From positions 1 to 33,466 of the forward strand of contig JAHIPI010000074.1 in the NCBI GenBank assembly GCA_018894435.1: 33,466 bases of DNA, in the 5' to 3' direction. Of this stretch, positions 4,049 to 32,001 are shown piece after piece. A program made the position numbers and the translations under genes. A model generated the notes under the pieces. It saw nothing but the letters and a program-made list of their open reading frames with translations, had not been told where the DNA came from and did not search any database. The DNA is from Candidatus Omnitrophota bacterium. GTDB lineage: Bacteria > Omnitrophota > Gorgyraeia > JAHIPI01. Every line of letters starts with the position of its first letter. Position 1 is the first letter of the stretch.

Positions 4049-5235
4049 TATTTGTCGTTAAGCGCTGCTATGCCCGGTAAGGTCTTTCCTTCCAGGTATT
4101 CCAGCGAAGCGCCCCCGCCTGTGGATATATGCGACATCTTATCTTCCAGGCCGAGTTCGTATATCGCCGCCGCGGTATCGCCGCCGCCGATTATTGTAGT
4201 CGCCTTTATTGTCGTAAGAAACCTTGCCAGCTCTTCTGTGCCTTTAGAAAACGGTTTTATCTCAAAAAATCCCACGGGGCCGTTCCATACTACCGTCTTT
4301 GAATCTTTGAGGACCTTTTCGAATTCCTCTATCGTCTTGGGCCCGATATCCAAACCTATTTCGCCGTCGGGTATCTCTCTCGTATTGACAATTTCTGTCT
4401 TAGCGGCCGCGTCCACCTTGTCGGCCACGACATGGTCGACCGGAAGCAAAATCCTGACGTTCTTTGCCTTGGCCTTTGACAATATATCTTTAGCCAGATC
4501 CACTTTATCGGCTTCCAACTTTGATTTTCCTATATTTATGCCCTCGGATTTAAGAAACGTGTAAGCCATAGCGCCGCCGATGAGTATGGCATCCACTTTA
4601 TCCATCAGATTCGTTATGACGCCTATCTTATCCGATACCTTTGCCCCGCCCAGTATGGCAACATACGGTTTCACAGGGTTCGTGGTGGCCTCTTCGAAAT
4701 ATTTTATCTCTTTATCTACCAGGAATCCGGCAACGGATGGAAGATATTTTGTGATGCCCTCAGTAGACGCGTGAGCTCTGTGGCATGTGCCAAATGCGTC
4801 GTTTACAAATATATCGGCAAGCGATGCGAGCTTCTTTGCAAATTCCGGGTCATTCTCTTCTTCTTCCGGATGGAAGCGCAGGTTTTCAAGAAGTACCACA
4901 TCCTTAGGCTTCATTTCCGAAACGGCCTTTTCTACATCCGGGCCTACGCAATCGTTCAGTTTTGTGACCTTTTTCGCCAAAAGCTCGCTCAATTTTTTTC
5001 CTACAGGGTCCAGCCTCAGCTCATCTTTAACCTTTCCGTCAGGCCTGCCGAGATGGCTCATCAATATGACTTTTGCGTCGTTCGAGATGAGATACTGGAT
5101 AGTCGGAATAGCCCCTTTTATCCGGCTGTCGTCCGTTATAGCCAACGATTTTTTATCAAGCGGCACGTTGAAGTCTACCCGCACGATGACGCGTTTATTT
5201 TTTACGTCAATATCCTTCAGCGTCTTCTTGTTCAT
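4048..5235 (-). CDS. pgk: Phosphoglycerate kinase
   Basis: Transfers phosphate from 1,3-bisphosphoglycerate to ADP; cytoplasmic glycolytic enzyme. From the chosen start ([19 protein letters not shown]) the protein has 395 residues, the normal family length. Motifs are VRVDFNVPL near the N-terminus, the substrate-binding [20 protein letters not shown], the hinge [19 protein letters not shown], and the C-terminal nucleotide loop GGGDTAAA. The frame is open upstream to 5292, but the ATG at 5235 overlaps the gapA stop as ATGA and is preceded by GAAAGG at proper spacing, so the 19 extra residues are rejected. Confidence 0.97.
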
Positions 5236-6284
5236 AAGCCTTTCGCCACCATCAATTCGATTAGATCCACCACTCTGCATGAATAACCCCATTCATTGTC
5301 GTACCAAGAAAGCACTTTTATGAAATTATCCTGCAATACCTTTGTGCTCGGCCCGTCTACGATGGAGCTTAAGGGGCAGTGGTTAAAATCTACGGAGACT
5401 ACTGGGTCCATAGTAAACCCTAATATGCCTTTCAGCTTTCCTTCGGATGCTTCACGAAGCGCAGCATTTACCTCTTCTACCGTAGTCTTTTTCGATAAAT
5501 TGCAGGTAAGGTCCACAACCGAAACATTCGGTACGGGGACGCGGATTGCAAAGCCGTCTAGCTTACCTTTTAATTCCGGAATGACAAGCGATATAGCTTT
5601 TGCGGCTCCTGTAGAGGTCGGTATCATGGAGACTGCCGCAGCGCGCGCGCGTCTAAGATCCGAATGCGCCATATCCTGGACTCTCTGGTCGTTTGTATAA
5701 GCGTGTATGGTCGTCATGAGCCCTCGCTCAATCCCCCATTTATCATTCAGGATCTTGGCGACCGGCGCAAGACAGTTGGTCGTGCAAGAAGCATTTGATA
5801 CGACATTGTGGTTTTTCGGGTCATACTTATCGTCGTTTACGCCCATAACGATCGTTATATCTTCGCCCTGGGCAGGAGCGGATATAATGACTTTCTTCGC
5901 GCCGCCTTTTGTAATGTGGTTCTCGGCGCCCCTTACTTCTTTGCCTTTTTTGTTGACGCCGTCTTTTTTAATGGTAAAAAGGCCTGTGGATTCTACTACT
6001 ATCTCAACGCCGAGTTCTTTCCATGGCAGCTCTGCGGGGTCTCTTTTGGCAAGGACCTTTATAGTCTTTCCGCCTACCGAGATAGCATCTGCCCCAAGCG
6101 CCTTTACTTCTTCGGGAAAACGGCCGTGCACCGAATCATATTTAAGTAGGTGCGCGTTTGTCTTTGTATCGGTTATGTCGTTTACTGCTACCAATTCTAT
6201 GGATTTGGATTTCATCTCAAGGATCGCCCTCGCGACCATTCTGCCTATTCTTCCAAACCCGTTTATACCAATTTTCGTCGCCAT
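5232..6284 (-). CDS. gapA: Glyceraldehyde-3-phosphate dehydrogenase, type I
   Basis: Oxidises and phosphorylates glyceraldehyde 3-phosphate with NAD(P). It is 350 residues long, slightly more than the usual 330-340. The Rossmann start is [18 protein letters not shown], the catalytic Cys167 lies in SNASCTTNC, and the C-terminal [11 protein letters not shown] is intact. An extra stretch of roughly ten residues rich in Lys/Gly (residues about 106-122, [15 protein letters not shown]) lies between TGLFT and the [13 protein letters not shown] strand, where many homologues have a short helix. It is the first gene of its operon: a consensus promoter lies at 6407-6435 and a strong GGAGGA Shine-Dalgarno at 6291-6296. 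The leader carries a repeat element. The stop overlaps pgk. Confidence 0.98.
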
Positions 6285-6296
6285 TTGTTATCCTCC

Positions 6297-6318
6297 GAAT
6301 TTTTGCGTGCAAAAATTC
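6297..6318. repeat. Perfect 10-bp inverted repeat in the gapA leader
   Basis: GAATTTTTGC and GCAAAAATTC flank a 2-base loop, giving a stem-loop in the leader RNA that ends immediately before the gapA Shine-Dalgarno (6291-6296). It is followed on its upstream side by a CTCGGGA...TCCCTCG repeat. The same pairing of a TTTGC/GCAAA hairpin with that repeat occurs near 13303-13385 and 19528-19587. Confidence 0.8.
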
Positions 6319-6367
6319 GTCCCGAGCAAGCGAGCTCGCTTTTTAGCTAGCGAGCGCGTCGAGGGAC
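6319..6367. repeat. Dispersed repeat, GTCCCTCG...CTCGGGAC family, copy 1 (gapA leader)
   Basis: On the minus strand it begins GTCCCTCGACGCGCTCGC and ends GCTTGCTCGGGACG. It contains the palindrome GCGAGCTCGC and a further CTCGCT/AGCGAG stem, so the whole element is self-complementary. It lies in the transcribed leader between the gapA promoter and its ribosome-binding site. Related ends are seen near 13335-13385, 19551-19587 and inside smc at 26616-26639. Confidence 0.7.
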
Positions 6368-8344: not shown

Positions 8345-8377
8345 TTCCGCCAAAGGCGGATCCGCCTCAGGCGGAAA
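8345..8377. repeat. 33-bp nested palindromic repeat, intergenic copy (truB-ribF)
   Basis: The outer arms TTCCGCC and GGCGGAA enclose a perfect 14-base palindrome, AGGCGGATCCGCCT on one strand. It differs at a single base from the element at 15402-15434, which lies inside the ligA coding sequence. Here it begins 6 bases after the truB stop. Confidence 0.85.
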
Positions 8378-12659: not shown

Positions 12660-13289
12660 TTAAGTTACGGATGCGTTGACAAAGCCGTTATGCAGCTTTT
12701 CAGCCCCTATCGTACTGGACGGCCCGTGCCCCGGATAGACTATAGTATTATCATCCAGGACCAGCAATTTTTCCCTTATAGAATCTATCAACTTCTTTTC
12801 GGAACCGTAAGGAAAATCGGTCCTGCCTACACCGCCCATAAACAAGGTGTCGCCGGTAAAGACGAAACCCCTCCCCAAAAGCGATATACTGCCCGGTGTA
12901 TGGCCCGGCGTATGTATGACCTTAAGCCCACAGGATCCTATCTCTATGATGTCTCCTTCTTCAAGGATACGGCTCGCTTCCGGGCTTTTTATGGAGAAAC
13001 CGAAAGACGCGGACATATTAAGTTTGGAATTACGCAAAAAGTCTACATCCAGTCTATGGATATAAATAGGCGCCTTGAATTTGCCATTTGACGAGATATG
13101 ATCGCCATGGCCGTGTGTATTTATTACGCACTTTATATTGAATCCGTGTCTTTCTATTTCCCGCTTTATCCCGTTACCGTCTGAGCCGGGATCTATAATA
13201 GCGGCTTCCCTCGTCTGGGGATCTGCAAGGATATAGCAGTTGGTCTCAAGGGCGCCGACCACAACCCTTTTTATAAACATCTTGTCCAC
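12660..13289 (-). CDS. Metallo-beta-lactamase-fold hydrolase (glyoxalase II-like)
   Basis: Cytoplasmic binuclear metal hydrolase of 209 residues. The metal motif is THGHGDH (His59, His61, Asp63, His64), followed by HTPGHTPGSISLL, the GDTLFMGGVGRTDFPYGS block and the final YPGHGPSSTIGAEK histidine. This subgroup of small proteins includes glyoxalase II-like thioesterases and related hydrolases; the substrate cannot be assigned. It starts with GTG (13287-13289), preceded by GGAGG at 13298-13302. The Shine-Dalgarno directly abuts the hairpin repeat lying between this gene and the lipoprotein gene. Confidence 0.9.
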   Translation of the reverse strand: MDKMFIKRVVVGALETNCYILADPQTREAAIIDPGSDGNGIKREIERHGFNIKCVINTHGHGDHISSNGKFKAPIYIHRLDVDFLRNSKLNMSASFGFSIKSPEASRILEEGDIIEIGSCGLKVIHTPGHTPGSISLLGRGFVFTGDTLFMGGVGRTDFPYGSEKKLIDSIREKLLVLDDNTIVYPGHGPSSTIGAEKLHNGFVNASVT

Positions 13290-13302
13290 TTTTTAAGCCT
13301 CC

Positions 13303-13385
13303 GATTTGCTCCTCTATCACCCGGTGAGCAAATCGTCCCGAGTAAAATCGAGGGGCGAATTGCCCTCTATAGAGGGATTTTACTC
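13303..13385. repeat. Dispersed repeat with hairpins, CTCGGGAC family, copy 2 (lipoprotein / MBL junction)
   Basis: Three self-complementary parts are visible: GATTTGCTC/GAGCAAATC (13303-13311 with 13326-13334), GAGTAAAATC/GATTTTACTC (13340-13349 with 13376-13385), and the palindrome CCCTCTATAGAGGG (13363-13376). On the minus strand the central part reads CCCCTCGATTTTACTCGGGACG, split here as CCCCTCGATTTT plus ACTCGGGACG, the same framework as the gapA leader element. The lipoprotein stop codon (13380-13382) lies inside one arm. The element ends at the GGAGG of the next gene. Confidence 0.75.
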
Positions 13386-13878: not shown

Positions 13879-15927
13879 TTATTTTATCATATCTTTAAAC
13901 TCTTCTTCGCTGACTATCTTTACGCCGAGCGACTTTGCCTTGTCGTATTTGGAACCTGGCTCGGCCCCGGCCACAACTATGCCTGTCTCTTTGCTGACGC
14001 TTGACGATACTCTTCCCCCGAGCTTGCGGACAAGTTCCTCCGCTTCGCTTCTTGTTATAGAAGATAATCCTCCCGTAAAGACAATGCTCTTCCCATCAAA
14101 AATGCCCTTTCGCCCGGAGACTTCTTCTTCCATCCTTACGCCGGCTTTGCGAAACTTTTCAAGGACCTTAAGATTCGCCTTATTGTTGAAAAAAGCATGT
14201 ATGCTTTCTGCTACTATAGGCCCTATCTCTTTATGCGACTCGAGCGATTCTATGCTCTGCCTGGCTATCCTATCTATTGAACCGTAATGCTTATATAAAA
14301 GCCACGCCACATGAACCCCGACATGGCGTATGCCAAGGGCAAATATAAGCCGAAAGAGCTCGTTTTGTTTACTCTTTTCGATACCGTCTATTAAATTCCT
14401 GGCGGATTTGTCGGCGAATCGTTCCAGGTTCTTCACGTCCTCAAATCCGAGATAGTAGAGGTCTCCGTAGTCACGCACCATCTTCTTCTCTACCAGCTGG
14501 CTTACAACCCTCTCGCCCAGCCCCTCTATATCCATGGCGCCCCTTGAAGCAAAATGGATTATCCTCTGCTCTATCTGCGCCCGGCACGAAATATTATCGC
14601 ATCTTACGGCGACCTCATTTTCGGGCCTTATAGTACCTGCTCCGCAAACAGGGCATTCTTTGGGCATCCTGAACTTCTCTTCTCCCCCGGTACGCCGCTC
14701 CTTTACTACGCTTATGACCTGCGGTATGATCTCGCCGCTCTTTTCTATAATAACGGTATCACCTATTCTTATATCTCTTCGCTCTATCTCGTCTATATTG
14801 TGAAGCGTAGAGCGCGATACCGTCGAGCCTGATATGTGGACGGGTTTTAATAAAGCAACGGGTGTCAGGGTCCCGGTCCTCCCTACCTGCACGATAATAT
14901 CCAGAAGTTTTGTTTCCTTTCGCTCCGCCGGAAATTTATACGCTATCATCCAGCGGGGGCTTTTAGTAGTCGAACCCAGCTTTTTCTGGTAGTCAAAAGA
15001 ATTAACTTTCACTACCATGCCGTCAACAGGATACTCGAGCGTGTCCTTTTTCTTTTCCCAGCTGTCACAATATTTTATCACATCCTCTATCCCGGAAAAC
15101 TTCGCGATATGAGGATTGACCCTCATGCCCGCAGAATCGAGATACCGAAGAAGTTCGTACTGGCTGCTTATTTTAACACTGAGAAGCGCGCCTACGCCAT
15201 GCACCAATATGCTCAGATGCCTTTTTGCGACTATCGCCGGGTCCAGAAGTTTAAGCGAGCCGGCCGCGGCATTCCGCGGATTCGCAAAAAGTTCTTCGCC
15301 CGCCTTTTCTTTTTCGGCATTGACCTTCAGGAAATCCTTTTCCGACATATATACTTCGCCGCGGACTTCCATTAAGGCCGGCACTTTACGATGATCTTTC
15401 TTTCCGCCAAAGGCGGATCCGCCTCCGGCGGAAAGGCGAGCCGGTATAGCCGACATAGTCAATATATTATGCGTAACTACATCACCTTCTCTGCCGTCGC
15501 CCCTTGTCGCGCCGCTTTCCAGTTTTCCGTTTTTATAAAGAAGCGAGATGCTCGCGCCGTCAACCTTAAGCTCAACAACGTACTCAACTTTATCTATTCC
15601 TAAATTCTTTTTGACGCGTCCGTCAAATGCCCTGAGTTCATCCGCATTGTAAGTATTATCCATACTCAGCATCGGCACTATATGTTTTGCGGCCGGAAAC
15701 TCTCCGGTCGGCGCCCCGCCCACCTTTTCGGTGGGAGAACCAGCTGCTTTAAACTGCGGATACTTCCCCTCGAGAGAGGCCAATTCCTTTAAAAGGCCGT
15801 CGTATTCCTGATCGGAAACAGTTGGAGCGGCATCTTCATAATATAACTTATTATATCGCTCTATCTCATTTCTTAATCTTTCGATGCGCTTTTTCACATC
15901 CGCGTTCTTCAACTTATCTTCCCTCAT
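13879..15927 (-). CDS. ligA: NAD-dependent DNA ligase LigA
   Basis: Seals nicks in DNA replication and repair using NAD+. Domains in order: Ia (YYEDAAPTVSDQEYDGLLKEL), adenylation domain with the nucleophile Lys in ELKVDGASIS (residue 121 from this start; E. coli Lys115), OB fold, four-Cys zinc finger (CPVCGAGTIR...CDNISCRAQ), helix-hairpin-helix domain, and a C-terminal BRCT domain (FDGKSIVFTGGLSSITRSEA onward). The frame opens at 15963. I chose MREDKLKNADVKKRIERLR at 15927, and a TTG at 15912 after AGGGAAG is a serious alternative. A palindromic repeat at 15402-15434 is translated in frame between IPARL and VPALMEVRGEVYMS, adding about a dozen Gly-rich residues to the adenylation domain surface. 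Confidence 0.97.
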   Translation of the reverse strand: MREDKLKNADVKKRIERLRNEIERYNKLYYEDAAPTVSDQEYDGLLKELASLEGKYPQFKAAGSPTEKVGGAPTGEFPAAKHIVPMLSMDNTYNADELRAFDGRVKKNLGIDKVEYVVELKVDGASISLLYKNGKLESGATRGDGREGDVVTHNILTMSAIPARLSAGGGSAFGGKKDHRKVPALMEVRGEVYMSEKDFLKVNAEKEKAGEELFANPRNAAAGSLKLLDPAIVAKRHLSILVHGVGALLSVKISSQYELLRYLDSAGMRVNPHIAKFSGIEDVIKYCDSWEKKKDTLEYPVDGMVVKVNSFDYQKKLGSTTKSPRWMIAYKFPAERKETKLLDIIVQVGRTGTLTPVALLKPVHISGSTVSRSTLHNIDEIERRDIRIGDTVIIEKSGEIIPQVISVVKERRTGGEEKFRMPKECPVCGAGTIRPENEVAVRCDNISCRAQIEQRIIHFASRGAMDIEGLGERVVSQLVEKKMVRDYGDLYYLGFEDVKNLERFADKSARNLIDGIEKSKQNELFRLIFALGIRHVGVHVAWLLYKHYGSIDRIARQSIESLESHKEIGPIVAESIHAFFNNKANLKVLEKFRKAGVRMEEEVSGRKGIFDGKSIVFTGGLSSITRSEAEELVRKLGGRVSSSVSKETGIVVAGAEPGSKYDKAKSLGVKIVSEEEFKDMIK
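15402..15434. repeat. 33-bp nested palindromic repeat, in-frame copy inside ligA
   Basis: This differs by one base in 33 from the intergenic element at 8345-8377. It is read through by ligA on the minus strand as SAGGGSAFGGK, in a position where LigA proteins usually pass directly from the IPxxL segment to the xVLEVRGEV-type strand. The length of 33 bases is a multiple of three and the reading frame used has no stop. Confidence 0.85.
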
Positions 15928-19448: not shown

Positions 19449-19526
19449 TGGTCGGGGCGGGCGGATTCGAACCGCCGACCTCTTGGTCCCGAACCAAGCG
19501 CGCTAGCCAAGCTGCGCTACGCCCCG
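19449..19526 (-). tRNA. tRNA-Pro (anticodon CGG)
   Basis: The minus strand folds as a full cloverleaf. The acceptor stem is CGGGGCG/CGCCCCG. The D arm is GCGC-loop-GCGC. The anticodon stem CTTGG/CCAAG holds the loop TTCGGGA, giving anticodon CGG for codon CCG. The variable loop is AGGTC, and the T arm GGCGG/CCGCC holds TTCGAAT. The discriminator A is followed by a genome-encoded CCA (19449-19451). The length is 78 bases with CCA. It has its own promoter (19615-19643), and a 10-bp hairpin sits directly before its 5' end. Confidence 0.96.
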
Positions 19527-19527
19527 A

Positions 19528-19587
19528 CAAATTTTGCGAAGCAAAATTTGATCCCGAGGTTGCGATGAGCAAGAGCAACCGAGGGAA
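19528..19587. repeat. Dispersed repeat with hairpin, CTCGGGA family, copy 3 (tRNA-Pro leader)
   Basis: CAAATTTTGC/GCAAAATTTG is a perfect 10-bp inverted repeat with a 3-base loop (19528-19550). It is followed by the CTCGGGA...TCCCTCG framework, which has a GGTTGC/GCAACC stem. The order (hairpin nearest the gene, repeat farther out) is the same as in the gapA leader. It occupies nearly the whole transcribed leader between the tRNA promoter and the mature 5' end. Confidence 0.75.
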
Positions 19588-23716: not shown

Positions 23717-24913
23717 TTATGCTTCTAAAAAGTGCCCTAATTTCTCCTTCTTCGTCGCCAAATACCTCTTATTGACCTTGTTCGGCGATACTACAAGCGG
23801 CACGCGTTCCGTGACTTTTAAACCATAACCTTCCAGGCCTATTATCTTCTTGGGATTATTCGTAATAAGCCTTATCTCTTTGAGTCCCAGATCCGCCAAA
23901 ATCTGCGCGCCTATGCCATAATCCCTAAGGTCAGCATCAAAACCAAGCGCGGCATTTGCCTCTACCGTGTCAAGCCCGCCATCCTGAAGGGCGTACGCCT
24001 TAAGCTTATTGGCAAGGCCTATACCTCTTCCCTCCTGCCTCATATAAAGAAAAACGCCTTTGCCTTCTTTATTTATCATCCTGAGCGCGCGCTTAAGCTG
24101 CTCGCCGCAGTCGCATCGGTGCGAACCGAAGACATCGCCCGTAAGGCATTCGGAATGGACGCGGACAAGTACCGGGATCTTGCCGCATTCCCCTTTTATC
24201 AGCGCAAGGTGGTGCGATTTGTCGATCTTGGATTCGTAAACTACCAGTTTAAATTCGCCGGCATCCGTCGGTATATGAGTCTCTGTCAATTTCTCCACTA
24301 ACTTCTCGCGCCTTCTCCTGTATTCTATAATCTCGGCTATAGTGCATATCTTAAGGCCGTATTTCAAGGCAAATTTATCCAAATGGTGGCTGCGCGCCAT
24401 TGTACCGTCTTCATTTAAGATTTCGCATATTACACCGGCGGGATAGAGCGAAGATATCTTCATAAGGTCAACGCACGCCTCCGTATGGCCGGCTCTTACA
24501 AGAACGCCGCCTTCCCGCGCCCTCAATGGAAATACATGGCCGGGTTTTACGAGGTCTGCGGGCTTTGTATTTTTACTTCCTAAAAGTCGTATGGTATGGG
24601 CTCTATCTTTTGCGGATATACCTGTAGTAATACCCTTTTTTGCGTCAACAGATACCGCCCATGCAGTCTTAAAAGGATCTCCCGGAGACCCTACCATTGA
24701 GTAGATACCCAGCCCATCTAGCATAGCCCCTTCCATCGGTACACAGACAAGCCCCCGGCCGTATCTGACCATGAAATTTATATCTTCGTCCCGGACCTTG
24801 GACGCAGCTATGACAAGATCGCCTTCGTTCTCTCTCTTTTCGTCATCCATGACGATGACCATTTTGCCGGCTTTCAGATCCCGTATGATATCCCGCATAT
24901 TATTGGCTTTCAT
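23717..24913 (-). CDS. ribBA: Bifunctional DHBP synthase / GTP cyclohydrolase II
   Basis: Supplies both precursors of riboflavin: dihydroxybutanone phosphate from ribulose 5-phosphate, and the pyrimidine from GTP. The N-terminal DHBP synthase domain (residues 1-200) has [31 protein letters not shown] and [17 protein letters not shown]. The C-terminal cyclohydrolase II domain has the three zinc cysteines in [18 protein letters not shown] and the [19 protein letters not shown] block. The length of 398 residues matches the fused type. It is the first gene of the operon, 190 nt downstream of the FMN aptamer, with AAGGA seven bases before the ATG. Confidence 0.97.
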
Positions 24914-25073: not shown

Positions 25074-25104
25074 CATGACAAAATAGTAAAAAACCGCATC
25101 TTTT

Positions 25105-25222
25105 AATCTTCTTTCATCTAGACTTTACTATCGGCCCCGGAATCGCGCCGGGTCTGCCCCGCTATTGCAAGGCTCGTAGGCTTTCACTACCGGTCGAGGA
25201 ATTCCACCTCACCCCGAAGATT
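25105..25222 (-). ncRNA. FMN riboswitch (RFN element) controlling the riboflavin operon
   Basis: The minus strand shows the conserved RFN core in order: AATCTTCGGGGTGAGGTGGA, ATTCCTCGACCGGTAGTGAA, AGCCTACGAGCC, the GGGGCAGACCCGGCGCGATT stretch, CCGGGGCCGATAGTAAAGTC and TAGATGAAAGAAGATT. Paired ends AATCTTC and GAAGATT make P1 of 7 bp. It starts at the predicted transcription start and is followed by an intrinsic terminator, so FMN binding is expected to stop transcription before ribBA. Confidence 0.96.
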
Positions 25223-25228
25223 AGTGGT

Positions 25229-26574: not shown

Positions 26575-29500
26575 TTATGTGAGGAGTTTCTCTGGCTCGG
26601 CCGCCTTCTTCTCTTCGTCCCTCGACTCTACTCGGGACGAACCCTGAGCTTGTGGTTCGACAGGCTCACCACGCTTCAAACCACACTGAGCACCGTCGAA
26701 GTGTCGAACGGGTTCCTTCTCTTTCTCTTCCGAAGCCACGGCCTGCGCTCTCGCTTCATCGTGGAATTTGACCGAAACTATTTTGGATATACCGGATTTC
26801 TCCATTGTGATACCGTACATAACATCGGCCATTGTGATAGTACGCTTATTGTGGGTGACTACGATAAACTGCGATGTCTTGGTAAATTCCCTTATCGCTT
26901 TGGTAAAACGCTCCACGTTAGATTCGTCTAAGGGGGCATCGACCTCGTCCAAAAGGCAGAACGGACTCGGTTTTACTTTAAATATTGCGAATATCAGCGA
27001 TATCGCTGTAAGCGCCTTTTCTCCGCCTGAAAGAAGGGTGATACTTTGCAATCTCTTTCCGGGCGGCCTGACAGCTATTTCTATACCCGATTCAAGGACA
27101 TCGTGTTCGTCCAAAAGAAATACCTCAGCCTGTCCGCCTCCAAATAGATACCGGAAATAATTTTTAAATTCAAACTGTATCTTTTCAAATGTCTCCATAA
27201 AAAGCTTGCGTGTCGTCTTGTTTATCTTGGATATAGCTTCCTTGAGCGATTCTTTTGCTTTTACGAGATCTTCGCGCTGCTGGCTCAAAAAGTTAAACCT
27301 GTCTTCCAGCTCTTTATGCTCCTCTATCGCTACCAGATTTACGGTCCCCATTGACTCGAGCTTGCGCTTAAGCTCCTCTATCTCTCCTCGAAATGATTCC
27401 CAGTTCGAAGACGGATCGTATTCCACCTTATCATGGTCTATGTCGACCTTATAAAGTTGGGCCATTCTATTCCTAAGCGTCTCTGCCTTAAAAGATATTT
27501 CGGAACTTTTCATGTTTAAGTTGTGGTCTTTATCCTTATCTTCGTTTGACAACTTGTATAGCTCGGCCAGACGCTTTTCTATCATTTCTATAGCCGAAGA
27601 ATTTTTCTCTTTGTTGGCACTTATTCGCGCGATCTCTTCGGTTATTGTCTTTGCTTCGTTAGATAGTTCGACGACCTCCGCTCCCAGCTCTTCTATCTCC
27701 GAAGAAAGCTCGTCCGCCCTTCTCACCGAAGATTCTATCTCGTCTTTTTTCTGCGCGAGAGACAGGCTGTAAGTATTAAAGGATTCTCTTTGGGCTTCTA
27801 TGTTCTGCGAAAGCGTGGCCTTTTCTTTGGAAATAGCCTGAATCTCTGTTTTGACCTTTGTTATCAGTATTACTATCTCTTCACGCTCTCTGGAAATATT
27901 TTTTATCGCTTCTTCGGAATTGACAAGAAGATTATGGGTATTATTCTCCTCCGCCTCGATCTCCACCAAGCACTTTTCCAGGTCGTTCTTCTTGGAGGAA
28001 ATGTCGTTCACTTCGTCCTGGATTTCTTCCCTTTCGAGATTAAGGAGCGATAACTCCTCGGAGAGCCTCTCATCCTCTTCTCCGACCGATGATAGGCGGC
28101 TCTTTTTACTGTGATATTCCGCCTCTTCTTCCCTGAGGATACTTTCTAAGGAGACGATCTTTTCTTCAAGGCTTAAAAGTTTTGCGCTTAAATCCCCTTT
28201 CGCCGCTTCCATCTTGCCGATAAGATCCCTCGTGGATTCTATGGCGGAGGAGGCCTCTTTCAGGCGCAGTTCTCTGCCGATAATACCCTCGTCCTCTCCG
28301 AATACTCCCGACCCTCCCGCTATAAAACCTCGCGCTAGAACCTCACCCTTTTTAGTCACCAGTCTTACGTTAGCTGAGGAATCCGGAGAAATATAATGTA
28401 GTATCTTTTCGGCCTTGTCTACACTTTCAACAAGATAGGTATTGCCAAGAAGTCCTGCCACTACCTTTTTAAGGCTGTCTTTAGCCGTAATGAAGTCGCT
28501 TAATCTGCCTACGATATCGTCTTTTGAAAGATGAGATGCCGGGGCCTCGTTCGAATCTGTTATCTCATTGGATACTATGAAAGTTGCGCGTCCTTTTTTG
28601 GTTGTCTCCAGATATTCGACCGCCTTTAAAGCGCTCTCTCTGTCTTTTGCCACTATACACTGAATATAATCGCCGAGCGCTGCCTCGGCTGCCCTTTCAA
28701 ACCCTCTCTTTGCCTCGACCATATTGCCCAAAACACCCTCTATGCCTTCTATCTTTAAATCGCCACTATCAAGCGATTCTAAAAGCGCTTTTGTGCCGCC
28801 TGTAAATCCTTCGTGTTTCTTTATGAGGTCTTCCAAAAAAGATTTTTTGGATTCAAGCTTAATAAGCGCGTCCCGTTCTTTCTGCAGCTCATCTTCCGAG
28901 GCCCTGACAGACGTAAGAAGCGCTTCTTTTTCGCCAAGTATCCTATCTTTTTCCGCGCGGATATTGTTAAGCCGGTTTTCCGTATCCTTAAAGTCCCTGT
29001 CGGCCTCCGCTAGTTTCTCTTTTGCGGCCTTTGCTTCCTCCTCCACCTTTTCCGCTTCCAGGCTAAGACGCCTTAAACGCACAGACCTATTCTGTATATC
29101 GCTCGTAAGTTTTATAACCTCATTTTTGGATTTTGACCGCTCTGCCATATAGTTGATGAGGTTTTTACGGCTTTCTATCACATTCTTTTCGCTCGTCCTT
29201 ATTTCCGCTTCCAGCTCCAAAAGCCGCTTTTCTTCATCCTCCAAAACACGCACTTTTGCGCCTTCTAGGTCGGAGATTATGGCAAATTCGTTTTCAAGCG
29301 CTTCTATTAGTTTTTGTGCCGAGAGATGCCTCGATTCTATAGAAGTTATTTCGGCCCTTAAGCTTTCGATCCTTGCCGAGAGTTCGGCAATCCGCTCTTT
29401 GTCTACGATTATCTTATTCTTATTCTGCTCTATTAACGACTCCTTGGAGAATTTGGAATTCTGCAGTTGGGCAAACTTCGCGTCTATACCGGCAAAAGAT

Positions 29501-32001
29501 ATTCTTTCCGATTCAAGATTTGATGAGAGGTCTTCTATATCGCGGGATATCTTACTGATCTCATCTTTTATTTCAGATGCCTCGGATTCCTTCTCTTCTC
29601 TTTCGCGCTTAAGGATCTCATATTCATAAAATGCCGATTTAGATTCCAGGTCCTTAAGGCGGTCAAAACGCTCTTTATAGCGCTCCGCTTTCCTCGCCTG
29701 CCTCGTTATTGAATCTATCTGGCGCTTGACCTCTGTAACTATATCATTTACCCTGAGAAGGTTATTATCGGTATCTTCCAGCTTCCTTACCGCTTCCCTT
29801 CTCTTGGATTTGTACTTGGTTATCCCGCTGGCTTCTTCAAAAATAAAACGCCTGTCCTCGGGGCGGCTGCTTATTATGAGGTCTATCTTGCCCTGCTCTA
29901 CGATGGAATATGCCTCGGCCCCTATGCCCGTACCCATAAATAGTTCGTTGACGTCCTTGAGTCGGACGGGGGCCTTGTTTATAAGATATTCGCTCTCTCC
30001 TGAACGAAATAACCGGCGGGATACTACGACTTCATCGACATCGATCGAAAGGTTTCTATCTTTATTTGACAGGGTAAGCGAGACCTCGGCCATATTTATC
30101 GGCTCTCTGTCATCAGTCCCGTTAAATATGACATCTTCCATTGCGGAACCGCGCAAAGACTTAACAGACTGCTCGCCCAATACCCATTTTATGGCGTCGA
30201 TAATATTGCTATTATGGACAATGATATCGTTGGCAACGAAGTTGTGGTGCCCTTCAACGGTAAGGTCATAGACCCATTCAGGCCCCTTTACCCGCTCAAT
30301 TTTAACGATCTCATCCCAATAAATATCTGACCGCGCCAGATTCTTCAGATGATCCAAAATCAGTCTGGCTAAAGTGCTTATCCGGCCATGTTCCTCAATA
30401 ACACATAATACTTCATTCAGGCCTTCGCGGCTTGCATAACATCTATTCTCGTAATAGGCGCTTAACTTAGGATAAGTCTTGCGCAGTTTCTTGACGTTGA
30501 TCTTCGTTTCTTTAACCAGCAATTTTACTAACTTATTTACCTCCGGGATCAGGTCCAAATTGGGGTTTCCAGTATAATTTGCATTCTCTATCGATTTCAA
30601 CCTGGCTGCTTTTACGCCGACAAAATCGAGTCGCCGGACCAGTTGTTTAATGTTATTTATTCCATAGACATACACGGAATAATATTTTCTCTTTTTCTTA
30701 TCCCTTGTGTTTGTCGCCGCCTTTAGTTTTTCTCTGATAACCGACTGTGTCCCAAACCGGAGCAACAAAGTAGCGATATCCTCCGCGAGGCCGCACGAAG
30801 CCGTGGAATATTCTATATAATCGCAATTCTTTCCTCCTTTTCTGTCCGCGGATATATAGCCATCGCCTTCAAAGAGCGCCGAAAGAAATTCGGCGGCAAT
30901 CTCATCGTCTGCACCGAATATCTGTTTAGGTATTCTTTTTGAAGAAGATTTTTCTCCTATGCCGATACCGAATACTCTATCCAAAAATTTGCAAAGCGCG
31001 TGGGAATATACTAAAACGTCTTTTGTGTTCTCTTTATACGAGAAGACTTTCGCTTCTAATCCGAAAACATTTTTGACGCATGAGGCAAAATCCTTGATAA
31101 GCGCTTCGTCGCTATTGACAAACCACACCTGGTTTGCGGTGGTATTTCGGCCCTCGGAAAGTACATAGCCCAAGAATCTGGCGATATCCCTGTCAAGTTG
31201 AACGGGAATTTTAATCATACCGCATCCCTTGGATTTAATCTTAGTCACGACCTCACAAACATTGGGCATCGCTTGTTTTTTTAACAACTGAGAAAATATT
31301 GCGGCATTCAACGCTTGGCCGTCTCCTACTGATCTCAGCTGGTTAAAATTGGCGCCTATATCCTGAGCCAACTTCCCTAATCCATGCGCTTCTTCTGCCA
31401 GATTATCAACATAGCACCCAATCTTTTCGGAGTATGGGATATAAACAGAATCTTGCAGTAAAAATTCTTCCAATAACGATTCTACTCGCAAAATATTGTT
31501 AGAGTCGTACGGTTTTAATTGCCTCGGTCGCGCTATTTTGACTTTTTCCTTGAGCTCTTCGGCCTTGAGCGAGATAACCTGGCCATCGCGGATACTGAAA
31601 AAGGGGTGATAATGGGTGGTTGTTATTGTGCGGCCGCTTTTTGTCTTTACTTTAAGCAGAAACGATGGGGATTTTCTTTTTATGAAGGCAAGAACAGGCT
31701 TGTATTCTATTTTCAGGGTGCGGGGATTTAACGAAAACACTTTTGCCTGATCGATACTATCGGAATAAGCGCAGTAACCGTCATCAAGTAGTTTTACCCG
31801 CTTATTATTTTCAATCGCTGTCTCTACCAATGGGCCGATTTTTTCCCGTCGGCCGTCAGACAATAAGACCTCTGTTTCGCCGTCCACGCACTTGCCGCAT
31901 CCGTTTGGGCCTACTACCGTAGTTATTCCGGGCTCGAAATAAAGTTTAGTCTTTTCGGCAAAAGATTTAAATCCTACTATTTCTAATTTTTTAAAATACA
32001 T
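26575..32001 (-). CDS. smc: Chromosome segregation ATPase SMC, interrupted by an intein
   Basis: Structural maintenance of chromosomes ATPase that compacts and segregates DNA. The frame encodes 1808 residues, of which 38-597 are an intein; the spliced protein would be 1248 residues. N-extein MYFKKLEIVGFKSFAEKTKL ends in the Walker A GPNGCGK (Lys37). The C-extein resumes SNIIDAIKWVLGEQ, followed by a long coiled coil, a hinge (around FTGGTKALLESL to ALKAVEYLETT), the second coil, signature LLSGGEKALTAIS (from residue 1656) and Walker B FCLLDEVDAPLDE. The usual family end KIVSVKFHDE is followed by about 59 extra residues; some of them (about 1765-1795) are encoded by dispersed repeats. Own promoter at 32050-32078; convergent with the GGDEF gene, only 11 bases apart. 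scpA/scpB are not in the window. Confidence 0.97.
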   Translation of the reverse strand: MYFKKLEIVGFKSFAEKTKLYFEPGITTVVGPNGCGKCVDGETEVLLSDGRREKIGPLVETAIENNKRVKLLDDGYCAYSDSIDQAKVFSLNPRTLKIEYKPVLAFIKRKSPSFLLKVKTKSGRTITTTHYHPFFSIRDGQVISLKAEELKEKVKIARPRQLKPYDSNNILRVESLLEEFLLQDSVYIPYSEKIGCYVDNLAEEAHGLGKLAQDIGANFNQLRSVGDGQALNAAIFSQLLKKQAMPNVCEVVTKIKSKGCGMIKIPVQLDRDIARFLGYVLSEGRNTTANQVWFVNSDEALIKDFASCVKNVFGLEAKVFSYKENTKDVLVYSHALCKFLDRVFGIGIGEKSSSKRIPKQIFGADDEIAAEFLSALFEGDGYISADRKGGKNCDYIEYSTASCGLAEDIATLLLRFGTQSVIREKLKAATNTRDKKKRKYYSVYVYGINNIKQLVRRLDFVGVKAARLKSIENANYTGNPNLDLIPEVNKLVKLLVKETKINVKKLRKTYPKLSAYYENRCYASREGLNEVLCVIEEHGRISTLARLILDHLKNLARSDIYWDEIVKIERVKGPEWVYDLTVEGHHNFVANDIIVHNSNIIDAIKWVLGEQSVKSLRGSAMEDVIFNGTDDREPINMAEVSLTLSNKDRNLSIDVDEVVVSRRLFRSGESEYLINKAPVRLKDVNELFMGTGIGAEAYSIVEQGKIDLIISSRPEDRRFIFEEASGITKYKSKRREAVRKLEDTDNNLLRVNDIVTEVKRQIDSITRQARKAERYKERFDRLKDLESKSAFYEYEILKREREEKESEASEIKDEISKISRDIEDLSSNLESERISFAGIDAKFAQLQNSKFSKESLIEQNKNKIIVDKERIAELSARIESLRAEITSIESRHLSAQKLIEALENEFAIISDLEGAKVRVLEDEEKRLLELEAEIRTSEKNVIESRKNLINYMAERSKSKNEVIKLTSDIQNRSVRLRRLSLEAEKVEEEAKAAKEKLAEADRDFKDTENRLNNIRAEKDRILGEKEALLTSVRASEDELQKERDALIKLESKKSFLEDLIKKHEGFTGGTKALLESLDSGDLKIEGIEGVLGNMVEAKRGFERAAEAALGDYIQCIVAKDRESALKAVEYLETTKKGRATFIVSNEITDSNEAPASHLSKDDIVGRLSDFITAKDSLKKVVAGLLGNTYLVESVDKAEKILHYISPDSSANVRLVTKKGEVLARGFIAGGSGVFGEDEGIIGRELRLKEASSAIESTRDLIGKMEAAKGDLSAKLLSLEEKIVSLESILREEEAEYHSKKSRLSSVGEEDERLSEELSLLNLEREEIQDEVNDISSKKNDLEKCLVEIEAEENNTHNLLVNSEEAIKNISREREEIVILITKVKTEIQAISKEKATLSQNIEAQRESFNTYSLSLAQKKDEIESSVRRADELSSEIEELGAEVVELSNEAKTITEEIARISANKEKNSSAIEMIEKRLAELYKLSNEDKDKDHNLNMKSSEISFKAETLRNRMAQLYKVDIDHDKVEYDPSSNWESFRGEIEELKRKLESMGTVNLVAIEEHKELEDRFNFLSQQREDLVKAKESLKEAISKINKTTRKLFMETFEKIQFEFKNYFRYLFGGGQAEVFLLDEHDVLESGIEIAVRPPGKRLQSITLLSGGEKALTAISLIFAIFKVKPSPFCLLDEVDAPLDESNVERFTKAIREFTKTSQFIVVTHNKRTITMADVMYGITMEKSGISKIVSVKFHDEARAQAVASEEKEKEPVRHFDGAQCGLKRGEPVEPQAQGSSRVESRDEEKKAAEPEKLLT
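26616..26713. repeat. Two dispersed repeats inside the smc C-terminal coding sequence
   Basis: The plus strand at 26616-26639 reads CGTCCCTCGACTCTACTCGG then GACG, a short copy of the CTCGGGAC family. Directly beside it (26641-26713) lie ACCCTGAGCTTGTGGTTCGA and TGAGCACCGTCGAAGTGTCG, of the CCTGAGC...GTCGAA family also found at 19323-19390. The smc frame runs through both without a stop, adding HFDGAQCGLKRGEPVEPQAQ and GSSRVESRD. Confidence 0.8.
30211..31890 (-). mobile_element. Class 1 intein with LAGLIDADG (DOD) homing endonuclease, in the SMC P-loop
   Basis: 560 residues in frame between Walker A Lys37 and the following Ser. Splicing blocks: Cys1 in CVDGETEVLL (block A), TTTHYHPFF with Thr90 and His93 (block B, TxxH), VYDLTVEGHHNFVAN (block F, 540-554) and the terminal VHN with penultimate His559 and Asn560 (block G); +1 residue Ser. 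The endonuclease has two dodecapeptide motifs, FLGYVLSEG (239-247) and LSALFEGDG (336-344), with acidic residues Glu246 and Asp343 kept, so it looks active. About 100 residues between block B and the first motif and 180 after the second are candidate DNA-recognition regions. Removal restores GPNGCGKSN exactly. Confidence 0.96.

Follow-up and report, generated by a model that had tools for sequence, protein, structure and literature searches.

The two-hairpin module in front of the GAPDH gene of the window (the whole 33,466-nucleotide stretch of Candidatus Omnitrophota DNA that was analysed) is very probably, with a probability of roughly 0.83 on the sequence comparisons described here, a copy of a non-autonomous, target-specific mobile DNA element of ~50–110 bp that consists of two adjacent hairpins. 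Its position in the leader probably results from the insertion site and not from a dedicated regulatory role, which would be secondary at most. What the copies have in common as a neighbour is the motif GGNG (CNCC on the bottom strand), not a leader.

The GAPDH leader contains, on the minus strand, the hairpins hp1 and hp2; this strand reads GTCCCTCGACGCGCTCGC...GCTTGCTCGGGAC, then GAATTTTTGC-ACGC-AAAAATTC, then GGAGGATAACAAATG. The hairpins end flush at GGAGG, with the ATG a few bases beyond (Table 1). The whole module was matched at 6291–6367 by covariance model R2 (E = 3.4e-8) and folded better than its shuffles (z about –2.8 to –3.5). A perfect 10-bp hairpin ending at the Shine-Dalgarno, described in the earlier note, was borne out: the pattern of a 10-bp stem with a 4-nt loop matched 6296–6319, with 0 matches expected in shuffles. 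The repeat family claimed for the same leader held in one respect only. CTCGGGAC is real as the 3' arm of hp1, which is a larger imperfect hairpin; as an isolated 8-mer it showed no enrichment in the window (16 one-mismatch matches against 18 expected), so the repeat is meaningful only within the module. The GGAGG is placed outside the element because a G-rich Shine-Dalgarno is also present at orthologous sites free of the module, and because of the target counts given below. PGK and TIM follow GAPDH in the gene order. The GAPDH protein was closest to Elusimicrobia MAGs (80%), a resemblance that is not a taxonomic placement.

The same module in the same orientation, said to precede a metallo-beta-lactamase-fold (MBL) hydrolase gene and a tRNA, was found again at both places. 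The tRNA is tRNA-Pro; the copy there stops one base short of the mature tRNA, and its hp2 is the same as hp2 in genus g22. The window also holds a second dispersed palindrome, TTCCGCCAAAGGCGGATCCGCCTC(A/C)GGCGGAAA, in two places that are 97% alike, and similar CCGCC palindromes occur in the hp1 tip at L039, L041, L048 and L053.

Table 1. Module copies and neighbouring features in the window.
Feature	Position	Strand	Remarks
hp1, GAPDH copy	6319–6367	–	GTCCC..GGGAC base stem, conserved UC/CU tandem mismatch, longer inner stem, variable tip
hp2, GAPDH copy	6297–6318	–	GAATTTTTGC-ACGC-AAAAATTC; flush with Shine-Dalgarno
GGAGG	6292–6296	–	GAPDH Shine-Dalgarno and target motif of the element; outside the element
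GAPDH gene	5232–6284	–	PF02800/PF00044; downstream of module
MBL copy, whole	13297–13356	–	same orientation as GAPDH copy
hp1, MBL copy	13335–13356	–	
hp2, MBL copy	13303–13334	–	long-loop type; flush with GGAGG at 13298–13302
MBL-fold hydrolase gene	12660–13289	–	PF00753; downstream of MBL copy
tRNA-Pro copy	19528–19586	–	hp1 19552–19586, hp2 19528–19550
Mature tRNA-Pro	19449–19526		
Lone hp1-type palindrome, without hp2	26617–26638	+	antisense, inside 3' part of SMC ORF
SMC protein	26575–32001	–	1808 aa, intein-interrupted, LAGLIDADG endonuclease domain (PF14890, PF14528)
FMN riboswitch	25102–25225	–	105 bits; upstream of ribBA-type gene
ribBA-type gene	23717–24913		
Second dispersed palindrome	8345–8377, 15402–15434		

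The covariance search that had been proposed as a check gave 23 matches in the organism's own 1.57 Mb genome (model of the 3' half, E≤1). All but one of them (L046) lie before a Shine-Dalgarno and a start codon; with this strong leader bias and the massive compensatory change among the copies described below, the scattered, uncompensated copies that had been named as the opposite outcome did not occur. Among 39 relatives searched with the covariance model, G032 gave 53 matches and G038 gave 31, both in other families of the same class; no match came from the remaining three genomes in the window's own family. Across the class (292 genomes in 227 genera), model R2 matched in 74 genomes, which belong to 58 genera (E≤1e-4), copy numbers throughout being lower bounds. 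A phylum survey gave matches solely in the same class, the makeup of the other classes sampled not being stated. This patchy distribution, including the lack of copies in the rest of the window's family, counts for mobility. Viral contigs gave 17 hp1-like matches, none with hp2, which were judged unrelated to the module.

Base pairing in the module is strongly conserved. In an alignment of 131 distinct rows fitted to the model, 95.9% of cells pair and two-sided changes occur in 17 of 17 pairs; cells with such changes numbered 383 compared to 100 in shuffles, slid structures collapsed, and a MAFFT alignment of 20 sequences agreed. Covariation this overwhelming, together with a fixed orientation, a fixed distance to the start codon and several highly expressed carriers (GAPDH, EF-Tu, ribosomal S16, L35, L36 and L31, AtpE), speaks for a regulatory RNA acting in cis, or a stabiliser of the mRNA, whose leader hairpins would control translation or decay of the abutting gene. 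The character of the helices, however, points elsewhere. Over all stems, C–A mismatches (57) were nearly as frequent as G–U pairs (85), and hp2 combines more than 200 two-sided changes with just a handful of G–U cells; such near-parity and scarcity of G–U are unlike what is usually seen in a transcribed RNA helix under selection. The downstream genes, moreover, share no function or theme, orthologous leaders exist without the module, and a search of own and relatives' copies against Rfam, at gathering and at relaxed thresholds, returned nothing at the modules. Since copies also stand antisense at tRNA 3' ends and before tRNA-Ser, the module is not always 5' and sense. We consider a regulatory RNA of this kind very unlikely.

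Besides the base stem, the most conserved feature is CTCG/CTCG, which contains the UC/CU mismatch and is present in 95 of 130 copies. On the opposite strand it reads CGAG/CGAG, a tandem G–A mismatch context that may stabilise a DNA hairpin. Folding energies with DNA parameters gave no strand preference (63 of 130).

The positions of the 130 distinct copies are accounted for by the target motif. An automatic classifier, a few of whose assignments to Shine-Dalgarno plus GTG (e.g. L182 and the second copy of L066) may be tRNA or other sites, placed 92 copies before a Shine-Dalgarno and ATG, GTG or TTG. Another 14 stand directly at mature tRNA 5' ends (Ser, Val, Met), mostly of tRNA-Ser, which starts with GGAG, and nine are at tRNA 3' ends in antisense orientation (Ser, Leu, Gly, Cys, Thr, Val), with the junction after NCC. 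The remaining 15 were unclassified, several being tRNA-Ser-like sequence, contig ends or ATGG without a Shine-Dalgarno; further loci involve tRNA-Ala and tRNA-Asp. The first four bases after hp2 were GGAG in 105 of the 130 copies, and most others were another GGNG or GGGC. The start codon follows at 9–15 nt in all copies with Shine-Dalgarno and ATG except one, and an ATG-started ORF was found at that distance for 65% of modules. The control, every GGAG site in the loci examined, gave 16% and is itself a set rich in modules. The antisense tRNA copies lie beyond the reach of any leader RNA, and the motif covers every class of site; the leader bias arises because the short target GGNG is in most cases a Shine-Dalgarno. 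Of the three options offered in the earlier note, a mobile repeat preferring 5' leaders thus came close to being right, except that the preference for leaders is itself an effect of the GGNG target.

Several individual sites are unusual. A few copies (L161 and L190) directly abut ATGG without a Shine-Dalgarno, possibly before leaderless genes. At L362 (G266:C14:14100-14900) the module and the 5' half of tRNA-Ser are repeated ahead of an intact module and tRNA-Ser, as if a duplicated tRNA had taken up an insertion in its anticodon region. A group I intron lies near the module-bearing tRNA-Ser of L253; at L011 the module is closely preceded by a group II intron domain.

Comparison of orthologous sites, made between species-level genomes and not near-identical strains, revealed both empty and occupied states. 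The GAPDH leaders of G001–G003, three genomes of the window's family, run from promoter to Shine-Dalgarno without the module, and in at least G003 the same upstream fmt gene as in the window can be read. In genus g22, the module is present in the EF-Tu leader after fusA in G201 and G139 and has partly decayed in G021; G096, G210 and G247 lack it there. The junction is readable here because G201 and G096 share a flanking palindrome: ...CCCTACAATAAG/module/GGAGG in G201 compared to ...CCCTACAATTAT/GGAGG in G096. At YebC, G234 and G111 are empty, G139 holds a single copy, and G178 holds a decayed orthologue of the G139 copy and, between it and the GGAGG, a fresh copy. No target-site duplication was found at the EF-Tu and YebC sites. 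A second copy was likewise butted onto hp2 of an older one at L321 and L330, and copies 86–95% identical occur within one genome in unrelated flanks. Beside the module site in the EF-Tu leaders of L263 and L264 stand GTAG-headed perfect palindromes (GTAGGGGACGG..CCGTCCCCTAC and GTAGGGAACAGG..CCTGTTCCCTAC) that look like true GTAG-type repeats. A recurrent sequence of ~19 nt, AAGTAGCGAAAGACAAAG, precedes several modules in genus g22 (L271, L288, L295, L252, L262) and often bridges an older, truncated module and a new copy.

Some orthologous copies have been kept between species with pairing intact (e.g. L280/L284), in several species pairs, which could reflect selection for function. With the many housekeeping genes in a simple tally of carriers, this retention lends some weight to later co-option, by which a mobile element put in place by insertion would now serve in many leaders as a functional 5' UTR hairpin. 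Decayed copies beside new ones suggest, however, that copies are not maintained, and apparent retention could be fresh insertion at the same site. Co-option seems to us doubtful, if conceivable for some of the leader copies.

For the mobile element itself, we propose that it inserts directly beside 5'-CNCC-3' (mainly CTCC) on the bottom strand, with the polarity 5'-CNCC / hp2' - hp1' -3'; the gene strand then reads GGNG, mainly GGAGG. The motif stays intact and no visible target duplication is left. In compact AT-rich genomes most occurrences of this motif are Shine-Dalgarnos, tRNA-Ser 5' ends or the NCC at which a tRNA ends, so that copies accumulate in leaders and beside tRNAs, doing little harm there. 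The observed placement can be explained by target choice together with the loss of insertions that hit genes. The short target fixed to one side, the hairpins and the lack of a duplication resemble single-stranded insertion by HUH enzymes such as those of IS200/IS605 or TnpAREP. From this we infer that the element probably moves as a single-stranded DNA hairpin, by means of a recombinase of the HUH/Y1 or a similar type that acts in trans.

One precedent for such movement is the classical REP (or BIME) mobilised by a RAYT (TnpAREP), with hp1 and its two-base bulge as the REP and hp2 as an accessory hairpin. Both are small imperfect palindromes, many-copied, intergenic and non-coding; the conserved double mismatch recalls group 2 REPs, and E. 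coli TnpAREP depends on a hairpin bulge of two mismatches (PMC8266576). In G000, GTAG often forms the 5' flank, and RAYT genes were present in 22 of 25 genomes tested. The GTAG tag is frequent in G000 only, however, and neither it nor CGTC is conserved class-wide. RAYT genes are in general not flanked by modules, and two module-bearing genomes have no Y1 gene at all. In contrast to a REP or BIME, the module has two unlike hairpins in constant order with its GGNG target on the 3', hp2 side, and lies upstream of genes, whereas REPs are found mainly downstream of coding sequence (PMC3733652). With the tag and the RAYT linkage missing, membership among REPs fails, and we regard the module as unlikely to be one. 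As for Y1 transposases generally, RAYT included, their genes were present independently of modules and not flanked by them; they were rejected as the mobiliser for want of both linkage and correlation. In a search with the hp2 pattern, hp1 was directly adjacent in 28 of the 30 loci examined, the other two being lone hp2, and at none of the 30 did a gene lie between the hairpins, as it would in an autonomous copy.

IS200/IS605 elements and their non-autonomous derivatives resemble the module in that their ends are hairpins, they insert strand-specifically next to a short target (a tetranucleotide for IS608; PMC5934647) and they cause no target duplication. They differ in that no transposase copy with module ends was found and that the two hairpins of the module stand immediately next to one another and to the target. 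Bacterial MITEs (RUP, Correia, ERIC, YPAL; PMC2229807) are likewise short, non-coding and dispersed and affect flanking transcripts, but most duplicate their target and carry TA at their ends as well as terminal inverted repeats; classical MITE membership fails as the module makes no duplication, and we found none described as tied to Shine-Dalgarnos or tRNA ends. A literature search, largely outside subscription journals, gave no description of a Shine-Dalgarno-targeting repeat. We file the module as a new sort of small mobile palindromic element that acts like a REP, a MITE or an IS200-type miniature element. More tentatively, it may belong to an undescribed mobile family with its own non-RAYT hairpin-recognising recombinase, directed to the complement of the Shine-Dalgarno and to tRNA ends (CNCC); such a family would have dozens of copies per genome, and new copies, stacking between older ones and the ribosome-binding site, would rewrite the 5' leaders of essential genes.

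Strong covariation and a fixed distance to the start codon are thus no proof of a regulatory RNA. The mobilising enzyme, once found, could yield a recombinase that targets a motif of 4–5 bases. The best known small bacterial repeats, the REPs, lie mostly downstream of genes, whereas this module sits at ribosome-binding sites and mature tRNA ends. If the mobile-element reading is true, landing flush against Shine-Dalgarnos and tRNA ends without damage to either would amount to a safe-harbour strategy of a distinct kind, and the element would naturally supply essential genes with new 5' leaders.
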